Below, one piece after another: positions 1 to 6,447 of a DNA stretch of 28,371 nt; position 1 is the first letter of the stretch, and each line of letters begins with the position of its first letter. This stretch comes from a virus. The stretch spans positions 1 through 28,371 of IMG/VR virus record IMGVR_UViG_3300025085_003399; one strand, given 5' to 3'. The position numbers and the translations under genes are program-made. A model generated the notes under the pieces. It ran no database searches. It saw only the letters and a list, made by a program, of their open reading frames with translations, and was not told where the DNA came from.

Positions 1-221
1 GTAAAGATCAAGTAGCAGAACTAAGAGAAGATATAAGACGTCTAAATCAGACTATAATTAGTGAGTGTAAGGATATTCATAACAGAATTAATCCTGTCGC
101 TGAGGATTTAAAGGTTGTAGTAGATAAAACTAATAGACATGACAAGATTATATGGGCTACCGTAGTAGGTATTGTAACTGTATCTGGTATGTTTGCTAAA
201 CTTTTACTTTTACCATCATGA
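1..221 (+). CDS. Partial small membrane protein (C-terminal end only)
   Basis: An open frame runs in from the left edge (first full codon at 3) and ends in TGA at 219-221, giving 72 visible residues; the true start lies outside the window. The first 45 or so residues are charged and heptad-like (KDQVAELREDIRRL), as in a short coiled coil. Residues 49-70 (IIWATVVGIVTVSGMFAKLLLL) form one hydrophobic membrane segment, followed by only two residues. Such a coiled coil plus C-terminal membrane anchor occurs in small phage membrane proteins, including some lysis-associated ones, but nothing here proves that role. The stop overlaps the next start codon as ATGA, so the two genes are translationally coupled. 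Confidence 0.6.
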   Translation, partial: KDQVAELREDIRRLNQTIISECKDIHNRINPVAEDLKVVVDKTNRHDKIIWATVVGIVTVSGMFAKLLLLPS

Positions 222-811
222 AGACGTTTAAAGAGTATTTCGAGCAAGAGGAGGTTAGGGATACTGTTGGTATACTACCAGGTGGATTTAAGCCACCTAC
301 TCTAGGACACTTTTTAGCCTTAAAAGATTTGCTCGAAAAAGCTGATCGAGGTATTGTTTACGTAGGTACAGGAGCGCGACCGCTTGTAGCAGATGATCCA
401 AGTAAAGGATCTATCACACAACAGCAATCAAAAGCTATATGGGATATTTATAAAAATCATTTTAATAAACCTGTAGAGATTATTGAATCCCCTATTTCCC
501 CAGTGAAAGATACTTATGATTTTGCTTTAGATAATGATGATGTAAATATTATTGTAGGTGCTGGGGGCCCTCGTAAGCTTAAGGGTGGTGGTTTTACGGA
601 TGGTGATATGAAAAGGTATGAATCATTTACTAAGAATAAAGAAAAGTATCCACATGTCGCTCTAAAAGAAATTGAATCTAAACAAGATATTAAGGGTGAA
701 GTTGTAAGAAAGGCAATAGTGGATGATATTGATCTAGCAATAGAGAACTACTTTCCAGATGTACTTAACGAGACAGATAAAGATACCATAAAGTCAATAC
801 TTCAAGCATAA
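218..811 (+). CDS. Cytidylyltransferase-like nucleotidyltransferase with capsid-targeting-like N-terminus
   Basis: The 197-aa product has a nucleotidyltransferase-fold signature: GGFKPPTLGH at residues 22-31 corresponds to the (H/T)xGH nucleotide-binding motif, and IKGEVVRKAI near residue 160 resembles the ISxTxxR motif of the NMNAT/FAD synthetase/PPAT superfamily. Such enzymes transfer a nucleotide to a phosphorylated acceptor and release pyrophosphate; the substrate cannot be told. The first ten residues, MKTFKEYFEQ, align position by position with the T4 internal-protein capsid-targeting sequence MKTYQEFIAE, which suggests (inference) packaging inside the head. The start codon overlaps the preceding stop as ATGA. 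The next gene starts 8 nt after the stop. Confidence 0.75.
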   Translation: MKTFKEYFEQEEVRDTVGILPGGFKPPTLGHFLALKDLLEKADRGIVYVGTGARPLVADDPSKGSITQQQSKAIWDIYKNHFNKPVEIIESPISPVKDTYDFALDNDDVNIIVGAGGPRKLKGGGFTDGDMKRYESFTKNKEKYPHVALKEIESKQDIKGEVVRKAIVDDIDLAIENYFPDVLNETDKDTIKSILQA

Positions 812-814
812 ATA
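807..814 (+). promoter_or_regulatory. T4-type late promoter box CATAAATA
   Basis: CATAAATA lies 5 nt before the ATG at 820 and matches the NATAAATA box of T4-like marine phages. No TTG hexamer sits 16 bp upstream, unlike the early-type promoters in this window. The box overlaps the stop codon of the preceding gene. The flanking sequence (AAGCATAAATAT) is identical to that before the gene at 2522. Confidence 0.6.
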
Positions 815-819
815 TACAC

Positions 820-1242
820 ATGAGTAAGAGACAGGATAGAGCTAGCTTACAAGAGGCTTATGAATCTGTAAACGAGATGGTTGGTGGAGCTCCTATTATA
901 GCTGTAACTGGTCTTGATCCACAACAAACTAATAAATGTGGTTGTGGAAGCAATGAATGTGACTGTGATAGTCATGGTCATGGTGGTGAGGAACATGATA
1001 ATTCCGAAATTCACATGGCAAAAGCAGAACTTAAAAAAGCTGCTGATTATGCTACTCAACTTTCAGCTATATTAGATAATTTAGATGGACTGGAAGGCTG
1101 GACAGCTTCAAAAATCACTAAAGCCGCTGACTACCTATCGTCTGTGTATCACTGGTTGGATTATGATGCTAACCAATCTCAAGACCCTGGTATGTTTAAC
1201 GTAGGCTGTGAGCACAGCCCTGAGTATCAAGATAGGCCGTAA
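820..1242 (+). CDS. Putative virion-associated protein with Cys/His-rich segment
   Basis: 140-aa protein with three parts. The N-terminus MSKRQDRASLQEAYESV contains an LxE|A site (LQE at 10-12) of the kind cut by T4-type prohead proteases. A middle segment has Cys40, 42, 47 and 49 and His52, 54, 59 and 65, a plausible metal-binding patch. A C-terminal helical domain (about 66-115: MAKAELKKAADYATQLSAIL, then GWTASKITKAADYLSSVYHW) resembles a domain I associate with head or virion proteins of T4-like cyanophages. The gene sits between two other genes with capsid-targeting-like N-termini and has its own late-type promoter box. Function is not established; virion association is an inference. Confidence 0.65.
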   Translation: MSKRQDRASLQEAYESVNEMVGGAPIIAVTGLDPQQTNKCGCGSNECDCDSHGHGGEEHDNSEIHMAKAELKKAADYATQLSAILDNLDGLEGWTASKITKAADYLSSVYHWLDYDANQSQDPGMFNVGCEHSPEYQDRP

Positions 1243-1256
1243 TACACTATATTAAA

Positions 1257-1697
1257 ATGAAAAGCTTTCTACAGTATATACAAGAAAAATCAGTTGTTGG
1301 TTTAATTGAGTTCTTTGATATTGACGGTGTAGGTAAAACACCTGCTAAGCTAGACTCGGGTAACGGTGCATATAATGTATTACACGGTGAAGATATTCAA
1401 GAACAAGGTAATAAGGTGTTCTTTAGAACTGTTAACGGTAAGACCTTACTTAAAGATAAAAAGGGTGAGATAACTATTAACGTTGGAGCAGGTAATTCAG
1501 AGCATAGACCTGTAGTTAATTTCGATTTTAAGATAGGTAATAAGGAATTTAAAGATATTCCTTTCTCTATAGGTAATAGATCGACTAACTTATATAAAAT
1601 ACTTGTAGGTAAGGATTTTATTGAGAATAAACTCGATGCGCTAATTGACGTCAGTAAGGAAAATATAGCCGACGACGATTTAGAGGTTAAGTATTAA
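1257..1697 (+). CDS. Retropepsin-like aspartic protease (RimB/DUF785-like) with capsid-targeting-like N-terminus
   Basis: 146-aa protein. VGKTPAKLDSGNGAYNVLHG, with Asp33-Ser34-Gly35, matches the AKxD(T/S)GAxxSALH motif of the RimB/DUF785 family (once called ATP-dependent zinc protease), which has a retropepsin-like fold with an Asp-Thr/Ser-Gly active site. A later beta-strand segment (VVNFDFKIGNKEFKDIPFSI, then LVGKDFIEN) fits the rest of that fold. Such proteases normally work as dimers. The N-terminus MKSFLQYIQE aligns with the T4 capsid-targeting peptide MKTYQEFIAE, including the I-x-E cleavage site, so the enzyme may be packaged in the head. Its 3' end overlaps the convergent gene by 4 nt. 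Confidence 0.7.
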   Translation: MKSFLQYIQEKSVVGLIEFFDIDGVGKTPAKLDSGNGAYNVLHGEDIQEQGNKVFFRTVNGKTLLKDKKGEITINVGAGNSEHRPVVNFDFKIGNKEFKDIPFSIGNRSTNLYKILVGKDFIENKLDALIDVSKENIADDDLEVKY

Positions 1698-2230
1698 TAA
1701 TACCAAGCTGGTATATTTCTTTTAGTCCAGAGAGCGAATGGCTTATCATGGATAATATACTGCCTATACTGTTCAATAACAGGTAAGTTGTTAAAGTCTT
1801 TATTTAACTTTCTACAATCACAGTCTGCATTAATAGCTACTGCATATTCTGTTAAACCCTCTCTAGACATAATGGTATTATGAACATTATCTAGACACCA
1901 TTGAATAAATGTCTTTGTAAAGTGCTCATTAGAGTCTGGCCAGCGAAACATACGCTCAGTGAACATTTCTAAGGTATGCTCCGCTAACCAAGTGAAGTTA
2001 TCTTTTGTCTCTCTAGCCCATATTGAGCATTGATGCTTAAAATAACCTTTACCTCTTCGACGCGGCTTACCTGTTGATGTACGTGGTGTAGATGGGTGAT
2101 CTAAAACTTCTTGTGGAAACGCATGTGCTAACATAATTGCTCCTTCAATCTGCATTTTAGATCTTACATGCTTATCACAAAGCTCGCGCGCTGATTGTAT
2201 AGGGTCATCATCAGTTACAAAAATATTCAT
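1694..2230 (-). CDS. Conserved phage protein of the CDKHV family, function unknown
   Basis: 178-aa protein beginning MNIFVTDDDPIQSARELCDKHVRSKM. The D-x-DP, CDKHV and C-terminal YRQY...K..ALWTKRNIPAWYY elements are the hallmarks of a family common in phages (usually MNIFVLDxDPxxAAxxxCDKHVVKM at the start and WKKRxxPxWW at the end). The family is often annotated hypothetical and sometimes, without good support, as a pyrimidine-dimer glycosylase. The conserved Cys, Asp, Lys and His in CDKHV could form a catalytic or metal site. It lies 20 nt downstream of the thioredoxin gene on the same strand, so the two may be cotranscribed. A TATAAT also sits 5 nt before its ATG, but without a TTG box at 16 bp. 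Confidence 0.65.
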   Translation of the reverse strand: MNIFVTDDDPIQSARELCDKHVRSKMQIEGAIMLAHAFPQEVLDHPSTPRTSTGKPRRRGKGYFKHQCSIWARETKDNFTWLAEHTLEMFTERMFRWPDSNEHFTKTFIQWCLDNVHNTIMSREGLTEYAVAINADCDCRKLNKDFNNLPVIEQYRQYIIHDKPFALWTKRNIPAWYY

Positions 2231-2250
2231 AACTAATTATATGATAGTTC

Positions 2251-2487
2251 CTATTTATTAGTCTCAATAGCTTCTACTATTTCCTCAAAACCTTTAACTA
2301 ACTCGAAATCATCTTTAGATCTTTTAATTAATAAGGTAGGTACAGATTTAACACCAAATTCTTTAAGAAGCTCTGGTTCATCATCTACATCGATCATGTC
2401 TACCTTTAAACTTTTCTGCTCTAGCATATTCTTTAACATGTGACAAGGGCCGCACCACTCAGCAGTGAATAATTTTATTGAAACCAT
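2251..2487 (-). CDS. Thioredoxin
   Basis: 78-aa protein with the classical active site WCGPC (AEWCGPCHML, about residues 9-18), the beta strand VDMIDVDDE and the cis-proline element VKSVPTLLI. It is a reduced single-domain thioredoxin, close in size to T4 NrdC (87 aa), and would supply electrons, for instance to ribonucleotide reductase. I take the start at MVSIKLF (2487) because the 12 in-frame residues upstream are hydrophobic and non-homologous, and because an early-type promoter sits just before this ATG. It is divergent from the virion-type gene at 2522 with only 34 bp between them. Confidence 0.85.
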   Translation of the reverse strand: MVSIKLFTAEWCGPCHMLKNMLEQKSLKVDMIDVDDEPELLKEFGVKSVPTLLIKRSKDDFELVKGFEEIVEAIETNK

Positions 2488-2492
2488 ATACA

Positions 2493-2520
2493 ATATTATA
2501 ATAATAAGCATAAATATCAA
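2493..2520 (-). promoter_or_regulatory. Early-type promoter for thioredoxin gene (TTGATA-16-TAATAT)
   Basis: On the minus strand TTGATA (2520-2515) is followed by 16 bp and TAATAT (2498-2493), then 5 nt to the ATG at 2487. A TATAAT at 2500-2495 gives an alternative with a 14-bp spacer. The promoter physically overlaps the late box of the divergent gene (2509-2516). Confidence 0.5.
2509..2516 (+). promoter_or_regulatory. T4-type late promoter box CATAAATA
   Basis: CATAAATA lies 5 nt before the ATG at 2522, with the same flanks and spacing as the box before the gene at 820. It lies inside the divergent early promoter of the thioredoxin gene. Confidence 0.6.
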
Positions 2521-2521
2521 C

Positions 2522-3040
2522 ATGAGAAAGTTATCTCAAAAAGAATTGGTACGAGAAGGAGTTGGTGACTTCATAAAGAATACTGTTAAAGGTTCAGCTG
2601 TTCTAGGTGGTAGAGTACTTAAAGGGTTAGCGAAAGCTGCTTCACCAACAGCTACTGATCAGCTTCGTAAATTCGGTAAAGCATTTAAGGATACAGATAA
2701 AGCAGTAATTGCAGCGACTACACCAATAGATCAAAGAATAGATAAGTACTTTAAAGATATGGGGTATAACGTTAATCGTACAACTGCAGGTGCAGATAAA
2801 GGTATATATGTTGTACAGGTAAGTGAGATAGGATACGACGACGATGGAAGTGAGGTTAACAATATAATAAAAAAACCGTATGTTATTAGAGTTGAAAAAA
2901 GTGGAATTAAGATCTTAAGAGGGCCTAGAACACCAGTAAGTAGTAAAGGTCATGCCCGCTCACAAGATTCAGCTGCACAAGATTCAGCTGCACAAACGCA
3001 AGGTGAACGGCCGCAACCTGCAGCTGCTAATGGCCAATAA
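2522..3040 (+). CDS. Putative virion protein, unknown function
   Basis: 172-aa protein. I take the start at MRKLSQKELVREG because the in-frame extension upstream (to 2465) runs through the promoter region and the thioredoxin start. The N-terminus contains ELVRE|G, a possible prohead-protease (L/V)xE site. Residues 14-50 form a Gly/Ala/Lys-rich amphipathic stretch (DFIKNTVKGSAVLGGRVLKG). The central part is alpha/beta (VVQVSEIGYDDDGSE, PYVIRVEKSGIKILRG). The tail is Ala/Gln-rich and carries a duplicated QDSAA encoded by a 15-bp tandem repeat. I do not recognise the family. Its late-type promoter and N-terminal motif suggest a head-associated protein. Confidence 0.55.
   Translation: MRKLSQKELVREGVGDFIKNTVKGSAVLGGRVLKGLAKAASPTATDQLRKFGKAFKDTDKAVIAATTPIDQRIDKYFKDMGYNVNRTTAGADKGIYVVQVSEIGYDDDGSEVNNIIKKPYVIRVEKSGIKILRGPRTPVSSKGHARSQDSAAQDSAAQTQGERPQPAAANGQ
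2961..2995 (+). repeat. 15-bp tandem repeat in coding sequence
   Basis: CACAAGATTCAGCTG occurs twice in a row (2961-2975, 2976-2990), followed by a partial third copy (CACAA, 2991-2995). It keeps the reading frame and encodes QDSAA twice in the low-complexity C-terminal tail, as expected of replication slippage. Confidence 0.9.
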
Positions 3041-3166
3041 TAAAGAAAGTTAAAAAAGTTTGCTGAAACACTTGCATTCCGGTTCTCAAATGAATAAGTG
3101 GTTAGTAGAGCGCTAAAAGAAACCTATATCTCTAAATCTAAAGCTCTATATTTAATATAATTTCAG

Positions 3167-3194
3167 TTGACTTTCTTCTTGCACCTGCTATAAT
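3167..3194 (+). promoter_or_regulatory. Early-type promoter for queD (TTGACT-16-TATAAT)
   Basis: TTGACT (3167-3172), 16 bp, TATAAT (3189-3194), then 8 nt to the ATG at 3203. There is no Shine-Dalgarno sequence in those 8 nt. The predicted transcript start falls within about 2 nt of the ATG. The rest of the 3041-3202 intergenic stretch shows no gene, tRNA or clear terminator. Confidence 0.7.
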
Positions 3195-3202
3195 TATATT
3201 GT

Positions 3203-3838
3203 ATGAGGTTCACAAGCAATAAAGTAATTAATTTAGGATCTGCAGCTTTCAGGCAATGGAGATCAACTCACAGTCACTGTCAATTTATTCACGGTTATAA
3301 TATTACAGCTGATATAACGTTCGAGTGTGATGGATTGGATGAACGAAATTGGGTTATGGATTTTGGAGGTCTAAAAGATCTTAAGAAAACTCTAGAGCAT
3401 ACATTTGATCATAAATTAGTTGTTGCATCAGATGATCCACAACTTGAATTAATCAAACAGCTAGATGCAGCTGGCGTAGCAGAAGTTGTTGTTCTAGATG
3501 GTGGTGTTGGCTGTGAGCGATTTGCAGAATTTGTATTAAAGACGTCTGATACTTATGTTGATGAGGCAACAAGTGGTAGAGTGAGAGTACAGAGTGTACA
3601 AATTAATGAGCATGGTAGTAACTATGCTACTTGTTATAGAGGTAATAAGCAGACAGTTACACAACAAGAGTTTGTAACCGGTGCAACTAACTCTATAGAT
3701 GTCAAATTTGAAGAAGCTTCGGAGCAAAGTGATACAACTACCACTACTACAGGTAATATAGCTGGAGCAGCTAGAGTAGGACCAGCTCCTAAATCAAACA
3801 GTATGGGTAATCCTTTCGCTGGTACTTCATGGGGTTAA
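3203..3838 (+). CDS. queD: QueD-like 6-carboxy-5,6,7,8-tetrahydropterin synthase with altered zinc ligands and C-terminal tail
   Basis: 211-aa member of the QueD/PTPS family, which turns dihydroneopterin triphosphate into 6-carboxytetrahydropterin, step two of 7-deazaguanine synthesis. Recognisable parts are HCQFIHGYN (Cys26, His30), NWVMDFGGLKDL (50-60), FDHKL (Asp69-His70) and a late Glu (INEHG, Glu136). Two of the three usual zinc histidines are changed: AAH is AAF (Phe16) and HGH is HGY (Tyr32); nearby His23 and His25 might compensate. Residues after about 150 form a tail absent from cellular QueD (120-140 aa), with a run of six Thr, a Gly/Pro stretch and the end NPFAGTSWG. The gene overlaps convergent phoH by 4 nt. 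The call is firm at family level; activity is less certain because of the ligand changes. Confidence 0.8.
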   Translation: MRFTSNKVINLGSAAFRQWRSTHSHCQFIHGYNITADITFECDGLDERNWVMDFGGLKDLKKTLEHTFDHKLVVASDDPQLELIKQLDAAGVAEVVVLDGGVGCERFAEFVLKTSDTYVDEATSGRVRVQSVQINEHGSNYATCYRGNKQTVTQQEFVTGATNSIDVKFEEASEQSDTTTTTTGNIAGAARVGPAPKSNSMGNPFAGTSWG

Positions 3839-4551
3839 CTATCAAGGATACCACATATAAACCGTAGTATCTTACTACGTACAATCTCTTTGATACCGAA
3901 TTTATATGCATAAATTCCATTATCTATACATTTTTCTGTATCAAACTTTTTAAAGGTATCTTCAAATCCCGTTTTACGTACATCAGATTGCTTACAATCA
4001 CCAGCAACTATATATTTTGAGTTACGACCGAACCTTGTTAAGATAGTAGTAAGTTCACCTTGAGATAAGTTCTGTGATTCATCTACAATAATAATACTAT
4101 TGTTAAATGTTAGACCTCTAACGAAGTTAACAGGTATCGCATCTATTAAACCTTTTTGTTTAAGCATAGAACATGCACCTTCACCAGCAATCTCTCTTAC
4201 TTTCTCTAATAAAGGCATTGCATAAGGTGAAAATTTATCATCAACCTCACCTGGTAACGATCCGAGACTTCTTTCTGCTGACTCTACTACAGATCTAATA
4301 TAGATAATTTTCTCTATTTCACCCTCTTTAAGTAGTTCTAATGCAGCGTATACAGCTATATATGTTTTAGCGGTACCGGCCGGTCCATCAACAAAAGATA
4401 TCTTTGTATTAGTATCAATAATACTTTCATAAAATTCCTTATGTTTAGGGTTAAAATAAAAAGGTCTCTTTATCTTAAAATTAAGTAACCAATTGGTACT
4501 AAATTCCTCTTCTAATATCTCGACAGGTTTTCGAGCAGTTTTTCGACTCAT
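3835..4551 (-). CDS. phoH: PhoH-like P-loop ATPase
   Basis: 238-aa single-domain PhoH protein. It has Walker A GPAGTAKT (56-63), SVVESAERSLGSLPGEVDDK (the SLGxLPG signature of the family), Walker B IIIVDESQN and a sensor-like stretch GDCKQSD. PhoH-like ATPases are very common in marine phages; a role in phosphate stress or RNA metabolism is proposed but not proven. The ATG at 4551 follows a perfect TATAAATA box by 7 nt, which suggests late expression. It is convergent with queD and divergent from queE. Confidence 0.9.
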   Translation of the reverse strand: MSRKTARKPVEILEEEFSTNWLLNFKIKRPFYFNPKHKEFYESIIDTNTKISFVDGPAGTAKTYIAVYAALELLKEGEIEKIIYIRSVVESAERSLGSLPGEVDDKFSPYAMPLLEKVREIAGEGACSMLKQKGLIDAIPVNFVRGLTFNNSIIIVDESQNLSQGELTTILTRFGRNSKYIVAGDCKQSDVRKTGFEDTFKKFDTEKCIDNGIYAYKFGIKEIVRSKILRFICGILDS

Positions 4552-4558
4552 TCTAAAA

Positions 4559-4566
4559 TATTTATA
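4559..4566 (-). promoter_or_regulatory. T4 late promoter box TATAAATA for phoH
   Basis: A perfect TATAAATA on the minus strand, 7 nt before the phoH ATG. It directly abuts the -35 hexamer of the queE promoter, so the two promoters stand back to back. Confidence 0.65.
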
Positions 4567-4594
4567 TTGTAATCCGGAAATGCTATACTATAAT
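4567..4594 (+). promoter_or_regulatory. Early-type promoter for queE (TTGTAA-16-TATAAT)
   Basis: TTGTAA (4567-4572), 16 bp, TATAAT (4589-4594), 6 nt to the ATG at 4601. This fixes the start of queE at 4601 rather than at in-frame codons further upstream inside phoH. Confidence 0.65.
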
Positions 4595-4600
4595 AGGTAT

Positions 4601-5359
4601 ATGGACTTAGATAAAGAGACTTTGATCTTGTCAGATGATAAGATTTTCTATACTATAGAAGGGGAAGGTGAATATGTCGGGCAGCGTTCACTGTTTATGA
4701 GGATGGCGATGTGTAACCTAACTTGTATTGGGTTTGCATCTGAAGACTCTCCTCACGGTTGTGACTCTTATGTCTCTTGGACTGTGAAGAATAAGATGAC
4801 CTTCAATGAGATCTTTAAGATGATGGAAGACAATAACTGGATTGAGAAGCTCGAGAAGGGTACGATCTGGAAACTCACTGGAGGTGAGCCTCTTATTCAA
4901 CAAAAGCAATTGCTTAAGCTTGTAGATGAGTTTATCTATCGATATGCATTTGAACCTAAGATTGACTTTGAGACTAATGCTACTCTTATGCCTGATCCAA
5001 GATGGCATGATGAGCTTGGTGCTACCTTTACTACTTCACCTAAGCTAACTACTAATGGTGATCCTGAGTCAAAGACTTATAAGCCAGAGGTACTTAAGTA
5101 TCATAGAGAGATTGGTTCAGGCTTTAAGTTTGTTATCAATGACCCTGATGCTGATATCAAAGAGATTTGGAATAAGTATGTTGAAGATGAGCATGGCATT
5201 AATGTTCCTCGCGAGCGTATTTGGTTTATGCCTTGTGCTGGTTCTCGAGAAGAACATATTGAGAATGCTATAGCTGTTGTTGAGTATGCTAAAGCAATGC
5301 ATGTACATTTCTCACCTCGACTACATCTCCTAGTTTGGAATATGGCGTTGAAGGTTTAA
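4601..5359 (+). CDS. queE: QueE, 7-carboxy-7-deazaguanine synthase (radical SAM)
   Basis: 252-aa radical SAM enzyme converting 6-carboxytetrahydropterin to 7-carboxy-7-deazaguanine, the third step of preQ0 synthesis. Seen: FYTIEGEGEYVGQRSLFMRM (substrate-binding start typical of QueE), cluster cysteines Cys38, Cys42 and Cys54, the SAM-binding LTGGEPLIQ, and FETNAT and FTTSPKL typical of the family. The Cys spacing is CX3CX11C rather than the common CX3CX2C, an insertion seen in some QueE proteins. The start is chosen from the promoter 6 nt upstream; in-frame codons back to 4493 lie within phoH. Neighbours queD and folE2 complete the GTP-to-CDG route; QueC is not in the window. Confidence 0.9.
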   Translation: MDLDKETLILSDDKIFYTIEGEGEYVGQRSLFMRMAMCNLTCIGFASEDSPHGCDSYVSWTVKNKMTFNEIFKMMEDNNWIEKLEKGTIWKLTGGEPLIQQKQLLKLVDEFIYRYAFEPKIDFETNATLMPDPRWHDELGATFTTSPKLTTNGDPESKTYKPEVLKYHREIGSGFKFVINDPDADIKEIWNKYVEDEHGINVPRERIWFMPCAGSREEHIENAIAVVEYAKAMHVHFSPRLHLLVWNMALKV

Positions 5360-5370
5360 TAAATAAATAG

Positions 5371-5398
5371 TTGATAAACTCTACATTAATTTTATAAT
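5371..5398 (+). promoter_or_regulatory. Early-type promoter for folE2 (TTGATA-16-TATAAT)
   Basis: TTGATA (5371-5376), 16 bp, TATAAT (5393-5398), then 8 nt to the ATG at 5407, again without a Shine-Dalgarno sequence. Confidence 0.65.
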
Positions 5399-5406
5399 AT
5401 ATTTGT

Positions 5407-6447
5407 ATGTCAGATAACAATAATAGCTACGAGTGGCTTGGTGATGATGAGCTTTCCGGTGAGAAAGATCAAATTGCTAGGGAAATTATGGGCAGTGAAT
5501 CCGCAGGTGGGTATGTTCCACCTTTACGAGTGTATGATAATACTGTACAGGCGGATAAGAAGTATATTTCTTCACTACCCGATTTACAAAACGGTCCATC
5601 TAGTCTAATTCAAGGATCAGCTGTACCTATTCAGCAGGTGGGTATCCATAACTTTAGATTACCACTTACGTATAAAAAGCGTAATGGTGATACAATTACA
5701 TTAGAAACCTCTGTAACCGGTAGTGTTAGCTTAGAGGCTCATAAAAAGGGTATTAACATGTCACGTGTGATGCGGTCTTTTTATGATCATAAGGATGAAG
5801 TATTTTCTATTGGTAAAATCAAAGAAGTATTAGAGTCATATAAGAATAACTTAGAGTGTTTTGACTCACGTATTATGCTTAAGATATCTTACCCTATTAA
5901 ACAGACAAGTTTGCGAAGTGGTTTAGAGGGTTATCAATACTACGATGTAGTATTTGAAGGTGATTTAACTAAAGACGGTGAATTTAAAAAGTATATTCAC
6001 TTCGATTTTGTCTATTCATCTGCATGCCCTTGTTCTTTTGAGCTTAGTGAGCACGCTGAAAAATACCGTAACCGTGCAACCGTACCTCACTCGCAACGTT
6101 CTGTAGCTCGTGTTAGTGTAAAGTTTGATGATATGCTTTGGGTAGAAGATATTCAAGAGTTATGTTTAGCTGCACTACGAACTGAGACGCAAGTTATGGT
6201 TAAGCGGGAAGATGAGCAAGCTTTTGCCGAGATGAACGGAGCATATCTTAAATTCGTAGAAGATGCAGTTCGACTTCTGTATCAGAACCTTTCAAATGAT
6301 AAGCGTATTACTGACTTTAAAGTAGTTGCATCCCATAATGAATCGCTTCATAGTCACAATGCCGTTTCTGTAATTGTGAAAGGTGTACCTGGAGGATTCA
6401 CAGCAGGAGTTGCCCGTGATGTATTTGAGTCTACTGGCTTGAGGTAA
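5407..6447 (+). CDS. folE2: GTP cyclohydrolase IB (FolE2)
   Basis: 346-aa protein of the COG1469/FolE2 family, which hydrolyses GTP to 7,8-dihydroneopterin triphosphate, the first step of both folate and 7-deazaguanine synthesis. Diagnostic motifs: VGIHNFRLPL (78-87), KGINMSR (114-120, usually KGxHMSR), ACPCSFELSEH (206-216, from the family's CPCS) and HSQRS (228-232, usually HNQRS), plus LKFVEDAVRLLYQNL near the end. QueF has the same T-fold but lacks CPCS and KGxxMSR. The first 60 or so residues are an acidic extension. FolE2 can use metals other than zinc, which may suit low-metal seawater (inference). It follows queE by 47 nt with its own promoter. Confidence 0.88.
   Translation: MSDNNNSYEWLGDDELSGEKDQIAREIMGSESAGGYVPPLRVYDNTVQADKKYISSLPDLQNGPSSLIQGSAVPIQQVGIHNFRLPLTYKKRNGDTITLETSVTGSVSLEAHKKGINMSRVMRSFYDHKDEVFSIGKIKEVLESYKNNLECFDSRIMLKISYPIKQTSLRSGLEGYQYYDVVFEGDLTKDGEFKKYIHFDFVYSSACPCSFELSEHAEKYRNRATVPHSQRSVARVSVKFDDMLWVEDIQELCLAALRTETQVMVKREDEQAFAEMNGAYLKFVEDAVRLLYQNLSNDKRITDFKVVASHNESLHSHNAVSVIVKGVPGGFTAGVARDVFESTGLR

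Follow-up and report, generated by a model that had tools for sequence, protein, structure and literature searches.

Introduction

In bacteriophage T4 the internal proteins (IPI, IPII and IPIII) and Alt are targeted to the core of the prohead, retained in the head and delivered with the DNA (PMC9026906, PMC3012670). In IPIII targeting depends mainly on residues 4 and 7 of the N-terminal leader and processing on residues 8 and 10; Asp at position 10 stops processing and leaves targeting (PMC9026906). Capsid targeting by such leaders is likely spread among T4-like phages, as is known from the T4 work (PMC9026906), and the presence of enzymes in cyanophage virions is already known from proteomics. 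Here we describe related leaders on four plus-strand open reading frames (ORFs), named 218, 820, 1257 and 2522 after their first positions, which lie at the left end of a genome fragment, the virus record IMGVR_UViG_3300025085_003399 (positions 1 to 28,371; this whole stretch is called the window). The window probably carries part of a cassette that encodes head-internal proteins of a marine T4-like myovirus and is expressed late; these proteins would be targeted by their leaders and retained in the head, with delivery as their most likely use.

Like T4 IPI, IPII, IPIII and Alt, the 218 and 1257 products have a 10-residue N-terminal leader with hydrophobic or aromatic residues at positions 4 and 7, and related records encode gp21 and gp23; unlike the T4 internal proteins, they have a nucleotidyltransferase and a retropepsin as their bodies, 218 has no processing Glu, and virion presence, cleavage and injection are predictions for this phage. 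In the open-access literature searched, capsid targeting and cyanophages are joined only in the T4 review PMC9026906 (most subscription journals are outside this scope), and a link of T4 capsid targeting to cyanophage virion enzymes appears unreported there; papers on the cyanophage NMNAT/cytidylyltransferases leave a targeting leader unmentioned.

Results

Leaders of the 218 and 1257 products keep the T4 targeting residues

An earlier note, made from the letters of the window, had placed the four ORFs correctly and had aligned the leaders of 218 and 1257 with that of the T4 internal proteins. The alignment holds for residues 4, 7 and 8, which are conserved in both families; it fails at residue 10 of 218, which is not Glu, and the leaders of 820 and 2522 prove to be of other types. 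Relatives were collected from IMG/VR (20 loci with 218 relatives; 102 stretches with 1257 relatives, of which 80 were kept), and the leader is present in nearly all relatives of both genes. Among 76 homologues of 1257, F4, F/Y7, F/I/Y8 and E10 are each found in 76/76, and positions 2, 3, 5, 6 and 9 vary; because all the residues of the T4 rule are kept, this leader would have the determinants of targeting as well as processing, although a Lys follows E10. Among 40 homologues of 218, F4, Y/F7 and F/Y8 are each found in 40/40, position 10 is D in 20, Q in 13 and N in 3, and E9 is present in 38. With 4, 7 and 8 kept and no E10, the 218 leader has targeting determinants only, so that capsid targeting is predicted from the alignment and gp21 cleavage at residue 10 is not. 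Cleavage of this leader, for which the earlier note proposed a check, is thus not supported; in T4, D at position 10 blocks processing (PMC9026906). The first six residues of 218, MKTFKE, are the same as those of T4 IPI and gp61.1.

In both families leader conservation by position matches the T4 mutational map. The ratio of nonsynonymous to synonymous differences (pN/pS) is 0.25 in the 1257 leader and 0.20 in the 218 leader, compared with 0.32 and 0.45 in the respective bodies, and the synonymous sites of the leaders are near saturation (pS 0.90 and 0.76, pN 0.22 and 0.15); selection therefore acts on the leader peptide. A fixed-position pattern derived from the T4 rule, M..[FYLI]..[FYLI][FYILMV].E, matches 1 of 41 window genes where shuffled N-termini give an expectation of 0.12, and a version tolerant at position 10 matches 218 and 1257 (0.10 expected by shuffling). 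Patterns for the 820 and 2522 leaders match those genes alone (0.03 and 0.00 expected), a weak test, since the patterns were derived from the same families. A loose leader expression was dropped in favor of the fixed-position pattern, as it would give about 3 chance matches per 191 genes. Judged by alignment and shuffling, the leaders of the window genes are real and above chance, conservation being the stronger evidence.

As a control, 150 kb of T4 were searched. The fixed pattern matches five annotated genes (IPII, IPIII, Alt, gp24 and gp61.1) and misses IPI; all of the five but gp61.1 are head proteins whose cleavage is established. The gp61.1 product (L184:8966-9130), which is annotated as hypothetical, starts MKTFKEFIKEDMVAG and fits the internal-protein leader.

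The tag is found on unrelated bodies

Across 2.06 Mb of related loci, 23 clusters of bodies carry leaders resembling the T4 capsid-targeting sequence (CTS); 7 of the clusters have at least three members, and some of the 23 are chance. DUF6267 is the clearest modular case; in the related record G013 its homologue is found a short distance ahead of the cassette. In eight related records DUF6267 begins with a tag of the MK.FKLYFE..ELL.EA type followed by an L-x-E/A-type site (the slash marks the cut), for example MKKFKLYFEDYLELLEEAKANTHL. In three cyanophages it starts at the domain, without a leader (MAKNTHL.., MNKATKPL.. and MQNKHQEH..), and in none of the three is the leaderless protein among the listed virion proteins. 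Leaders of the 820 type (LxEAY) and the 2522 type (SQKEL..EG) are likewise each found on more than one body. By these comparisons the tag is a modular address, carried by several unrelated bodies and absent from same-body homologues in other phages.

Prohead protease and late-type boxes

The gp21 homologue that the earlier note asked after is encoded in 15 of 18 related records (S77 family) and gp23 in 14 of 18; in G013 gp21 is located at 27708-28373 and gp23 begins at 29518. Neither gp21 nor gp23 is present in the 28-kb window itself. An ATAAATA box, which invites comparison with the T4 late promoter TATAAATA, stands at -12 before 820 and 2522, and the same box is found at -12 before gp21 in G013, G001 and G002; the cassette may accordingly be expressed together with late structural genes. 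No such box of their own was found in the window for 218 and 1257.

ATAAATA also occurs at -12 or -13 from many starts in G001 and G002, and 39 of 191 G001 genes have the box within 60 bases upstream (11 expected). From this spacing, late transcripts may be near-leaderless.

Leaders among cyanophage virion proteins

The virion protein table of cyanophage S-CREM2 (PMC10665884) offers an outside test. Five of the six annotated S-CREM2 proteins that fit the fixed pattern had been detected by others in purified virions: gp6, an S-adenosylmethionine (SAM) hydrolase (MKDFDSFLEE), gp13 (MKDLHSFLTE), gp14, a kinase (MKRFDAFLTE), gp136 (MQTFSMFFSE) and gp154, a cytidylyltransferase (MKNFSSFLTE). The association of pattern with detection has a Fisher p of 0.003; with the canonical structural genes set aside, p is 0.0002. 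Published virion proteomes of related phages thus suggest that enzymes bearing such tags are carried in the particle. The S-SCSM1 NMNAT, a virion-annotated protein, has the leader MKSFLQFLKE/A, of which F7, L8 and E10 are invariant in 47/47 homologues; 44 of these have Ala at residue 11. A similar stretch, SFLAE/A, stands at the expected end of the propeptide in the major capsid protein of S-SCSM1, which fits a common protease. In S-SZBM1 the detected cytidylyltransferase begins MRFRQFIIEA, with the motif shifted by one. A kinase reported from S-CRM01 virions starts MISFDQFLSE, and its neighbours start MNFSEFLEA and MKKLDQFLTE, with a nucleotidyltransferase-like one starting MKLFNQFFKEAE; these leaders are of the F/L..F-hydrophobic-x-E kind.

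Related motifs were also seen away from the extreme N-terminus. S-SCSM1 ORF93 (L174:41626-41835), a small virion-annotated protein, has a C-terminal CTS-like motif, RTFKEFLEYIE. S-CREM2 gp12 (L171:7704-10313), annotated as Cas9/Csn1 and reported in virions (28 peptides), has the CTS-like RFASFMAEA at residues 18-26, and proteins of S-CRM01, S-H34 and S-B68 with a gp12-like N-terminus keep a similar stretch (SFIKEA, SFLKEA, SFIAEA).

The four proteins

Coordinates of the genes, leaders and boxes are collected in Table 1. Both enzyme identities given by the earlier note are borne out, the nucleotidyltransferase superfamily for 218 by profile and motif and the retropepsin fold for 1257 by PF05618 and RloA. 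For 218 the match to PF01467 is 13.4 bits (cut-off 21 bits) and that to phrog_395 is likewise weak; the GGFKPPTxGH motif is largely invariant in 21 aligned homologues, with G30 and H31 invariant. The top match of the 218-family profile in each of three cyanophages is the virion-detected cytidylyltransferase/NMNAT (E 1.7e-5, 0.03 and 0.09, the first being the S-SCSM1 NMNAT). By profile 218 belongs to the same superfamily as these virion-associated enzymes (S-CREM2 gp154, S-SCSM1 ORF91, S-SZBM1_140 and T4-GC190 of S-SM1) and, like them, has a CTS-like leader; moreover, the S-SZBM1 cytidylyltransferase adjoins DUF6267, and in G001 and G002 DUF6267 has a homologue of 218 in its vicinity. Unlike the cyanophage NMNATs, 218 is shorter, has GGFKPPTxGH instead of GRxNPPHxGH, and has no E10.

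PF05618 matches 30/30 members of the 1257 family (best E 7.5e-12); with 22 bits, the member in the window falls under the Pfam cut-off of 27. An AlphaFold2 model of 1257 (mean predicted local distance difference test score, pLDDT, 79.5; leader residues 1-7 below 50) has a fold match to RloA (9g58), an aspartic peptidase from bacteria, with E 4.6e-9. Like RimB and RloA, 1257 has a retropepsin fold and a DS/TG motif. By profile alignment its invariant K31, R84 and R108 are placed like K46, R114 and R137 of RloA. The signal peptide of RloA is replaced in 1257 by a leader of the capsid type. The Lys and Arg residues of RloA bind polyglutamate (PMC12239564), and RimB strips polyglutamate from ribosomal protein S6 (RpsF) (PMC11957791). 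Because the RloA-type Lys and Arg residues seem to be kept and RimB acts on S6, a polyglutamate-directed activity of 1257 is a fair guess by analogy. A RimK-type ATP-grasp partner was sought in 15 relatives, the majority of which are fragments, and none was found. In Pelagibacter phage Mosig EXVC030M a protein (L099:7005-8396) combines an N-terminal leader, MQVQPFKNYLEEATG, with a retropepsin domain related to 1257 (27% identity); unlike 1257 it is a RimK-type ATP-grasp/retropepsin fusion, and only the Mosig fusion carries RimK. It is the only leader protein found in Mosig EXVC030M, with no leader cassette around it.

The L/V-x-E sites that the earlier note read in 820 and 2522 are present and lie in conserved leaders. 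These two leaders (..L-x-EAY..V.. in 820, M.KLSQKEL..EG in 2522) are of distinct types, each conserved, and share with T4 only the L/V-x-E site, not targeting residues 4 and 7. In the alignment of the 820 leader column 10 is L/I/M in 45/46, E12 is kept in 34/46 and Y14 in 42/46; the 2522-type leader is conserved across bodies from 5 different clusters. The helical hairpin in the AlphaFold2 model of 820 has a pLDDT of ~90 or more, and the leader is of low confidence. The longest ORF of 2522 begins with GTG at 2465, yet its relatives begin at the ATG. Searches of Pfam and PHROGs with 820 and 2522 gave only weak matches and no enzyme match, and no homologues of 820, 1257 or 2522 were found in the three cyanophages. 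The 820 and 2522 products are probably part of the same head-internal set.

Table 1. Positions of the genes, leaders, motif and promoter-like boxes at the left end of the window
Feature	Positions	Strand	Remarks
Nucleotidyltransferase (GGFKPPTxGH family), 197 residues, with T4-CTS-like N-terminal leader	218..811	+	Starts MKTFKEYFEQEEV; family profile, motif
Leader MKTFKEYFEQ	218..247	+	Targeting residues F4, Y7, F8 kept; residue 10 not Glu
ATAAATA box, T4-late-promoter-like	808..814	+	12 bases before 820 start
Protein of 140 residues	820..1242	+	Starts MSKRQDRASLQEAYESV; leader helix, disordered Cys/His-rich linker, helical hairpin (AlphaFold2)
Type-B leader MSKRQDRASLQEA, possible gp21 site LQE/A	820..858	+	Family alignment
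Retropepsin-like aspartic peptidase (RimB/RloA type, PF05618), 146 residues, with T4-CTS-like leader	1257..1697	+	Starts MKSFLQYIQEKSVVGL; Pfam, fold match
Leader MKSFLQYIQE	1257..1286	+	Fits T4 residues 4, 7, 8, 10
Catalytic motif D33-S-G	1353..1361	+	D33, G35 invariant; 34 is S or T
ATAAATA box	2510..2516	+	12 bases before 2522 start
Protein of 172 residues, type-C leader MRKLSQKELVREG, possible site VRE/G	2522..3040	+	Starts MRKLSQKELVREGVG

Surroundings of the cassette

G013 positions 840-6208 are 99.9% identical to window 1-5369; because the two are only ~70% alike further on, G013 is a near relative of the window and not the same genome. The drop in identity at window 5369 is abrupt and marks a recombination boundary or an assembly chimaera, and ~2.3 kb of the window (a QueF-like gene, small ORFs and an HNH gene) have no counterpart in G013. 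Genes resembling QueD (PTPS), QueE (radical-SAM) and QueF adjoin the cassette at window 3203-6447, which suggests 7-deazaguanine metabolism next to it. In G001, at 84-94 kb (L134:4090-14124) and 167-170 kb, more genes whose short N-termini end in L-x-E occur in runs; the candidate set is therefore larger than the four genes of the window.

Discussion

On the model of T4, the hydrophobic or aromatic residues 4, 7 and 8 of the 218 and 1257 leaders would dock these proteins on the scaffold core during prohead assembly, and the docked proteins would remain with the DNA in the mature head. In related genes (DUF6267 and the cyanophage NMNATs) the tag ends in an L-x-E/A site at which the gp21 protease could cut. 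As for the T4 internal proteins and Alt, the proteins would be delivered with the DNA into the next host, where NMN-adenylyltransferase-like and polyglutamate-directed protease activities may act early. Packaging of this phage's own proteins, their cleavage, their injection and an effect on the host are what we infer from the conserved and modular leaders, the gp21 of the relatives and the homology of 218 to a virion-detected protein.

Several observations weigh against this scheme. There is, to our knowledge, no proteome for this phage or for any phage bearing the 1257 gene. Because the S-CREM2 N-termini were known when the fixed pattern was devised, S-CREM2 is not an independent sample; out of sample the pattern is weaker, since only 1 of 2 matching proteins of S-SCSM1 and 0 of 3 of S-SZBM1 are virion-detected, and for the three cyanophages pooled 6/11 pattern proteins are detected versus a background of 130/719 (stratified p 0.01), a lower yield than the 5/6 of S-CREM2. 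Among the other genes that fit the pattern are a UvsY-like one, present in G001 and G002, and that of the T4 shell protein gp24. The leader of 218 has no E10, and that of 1257 has Lys directly after E10, which is unusual for a cleavage site; E10-K11 of 1257 moreover lies, in the alignment, where the RloA domain begins, so that E10 may be kept for the fold. The authors of the proteomes, finally, allow for co-purification (PMC10665884, PMC9602691).

This last possibility, in which the cyanophage virion enzymes are abundant co-purifying proteins and the N-termini form amphipathic helices that serve some other purpose, such as binding to a membrane or a partner, is in keeping with the fact that the leader is neither necessary nor sufficient for virion detection. 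It is nevertheless improbable: detection in S-CREM2 tracks the leader, leaderless replication and host-metabolism enzymes are mostly not listed, leaderless DUF6267 is unlisted in three phages, and the conserved residues match the T4 targeting map. Slighter still are the chances that recombination or a common translation-start signal produced the shared N-termini without any selection on the peptide. The genes do adjoin each other and partly overlap, as such an origin would have it; the idea was rejected, being largely refuted by the near-saturated pS and low pN of the leaders.

Less easily set aside, although we hold it unlikely, is the proposal that the leader is a core-docking tag on proteins that work inside the prohead, as scaffold parts, an extra maturation protease or DNA-condensing proteins, and are not delivered to act in the host. 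T4 IPIII influences head assembly (PMC9026906), a protease in the prohead could process Glu-rich scaffold, and 820 and 2522 are small and have no enzyme match. Yet relatives already have gp21, and neither the nucleotidyltransferase here nor the kinase and SAM hydrolase of S-CREM2 has an evident assembly role. Within the preferred reading, head-internal proteins delivered to the host, a more specific scenario is doubtful: marine T4-like phages would carry the retropepsin, an enzyme with the fold of HIV protease, in the head by means of a T4-type tag and deliver it, and polyglutamate tails (e.g. on S6) would be stripped before phage genes are expressed.

For the kinases, NMNAT-like enzymes and SAM hydrolase of cyanophage virions, the choice between cargo and contaminant has been left undecided by several groups. 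Applied to their N-termini, the T4 rule (residues 4, 7, 8 and 10) offers a simple answer from sequence for many of these enzymes, and it flags new candidates in uncultured marine phages, including the retropepsin and DUF6267. If this is true, the injected proteins of these marine T4-like phages would be readable from sequence.

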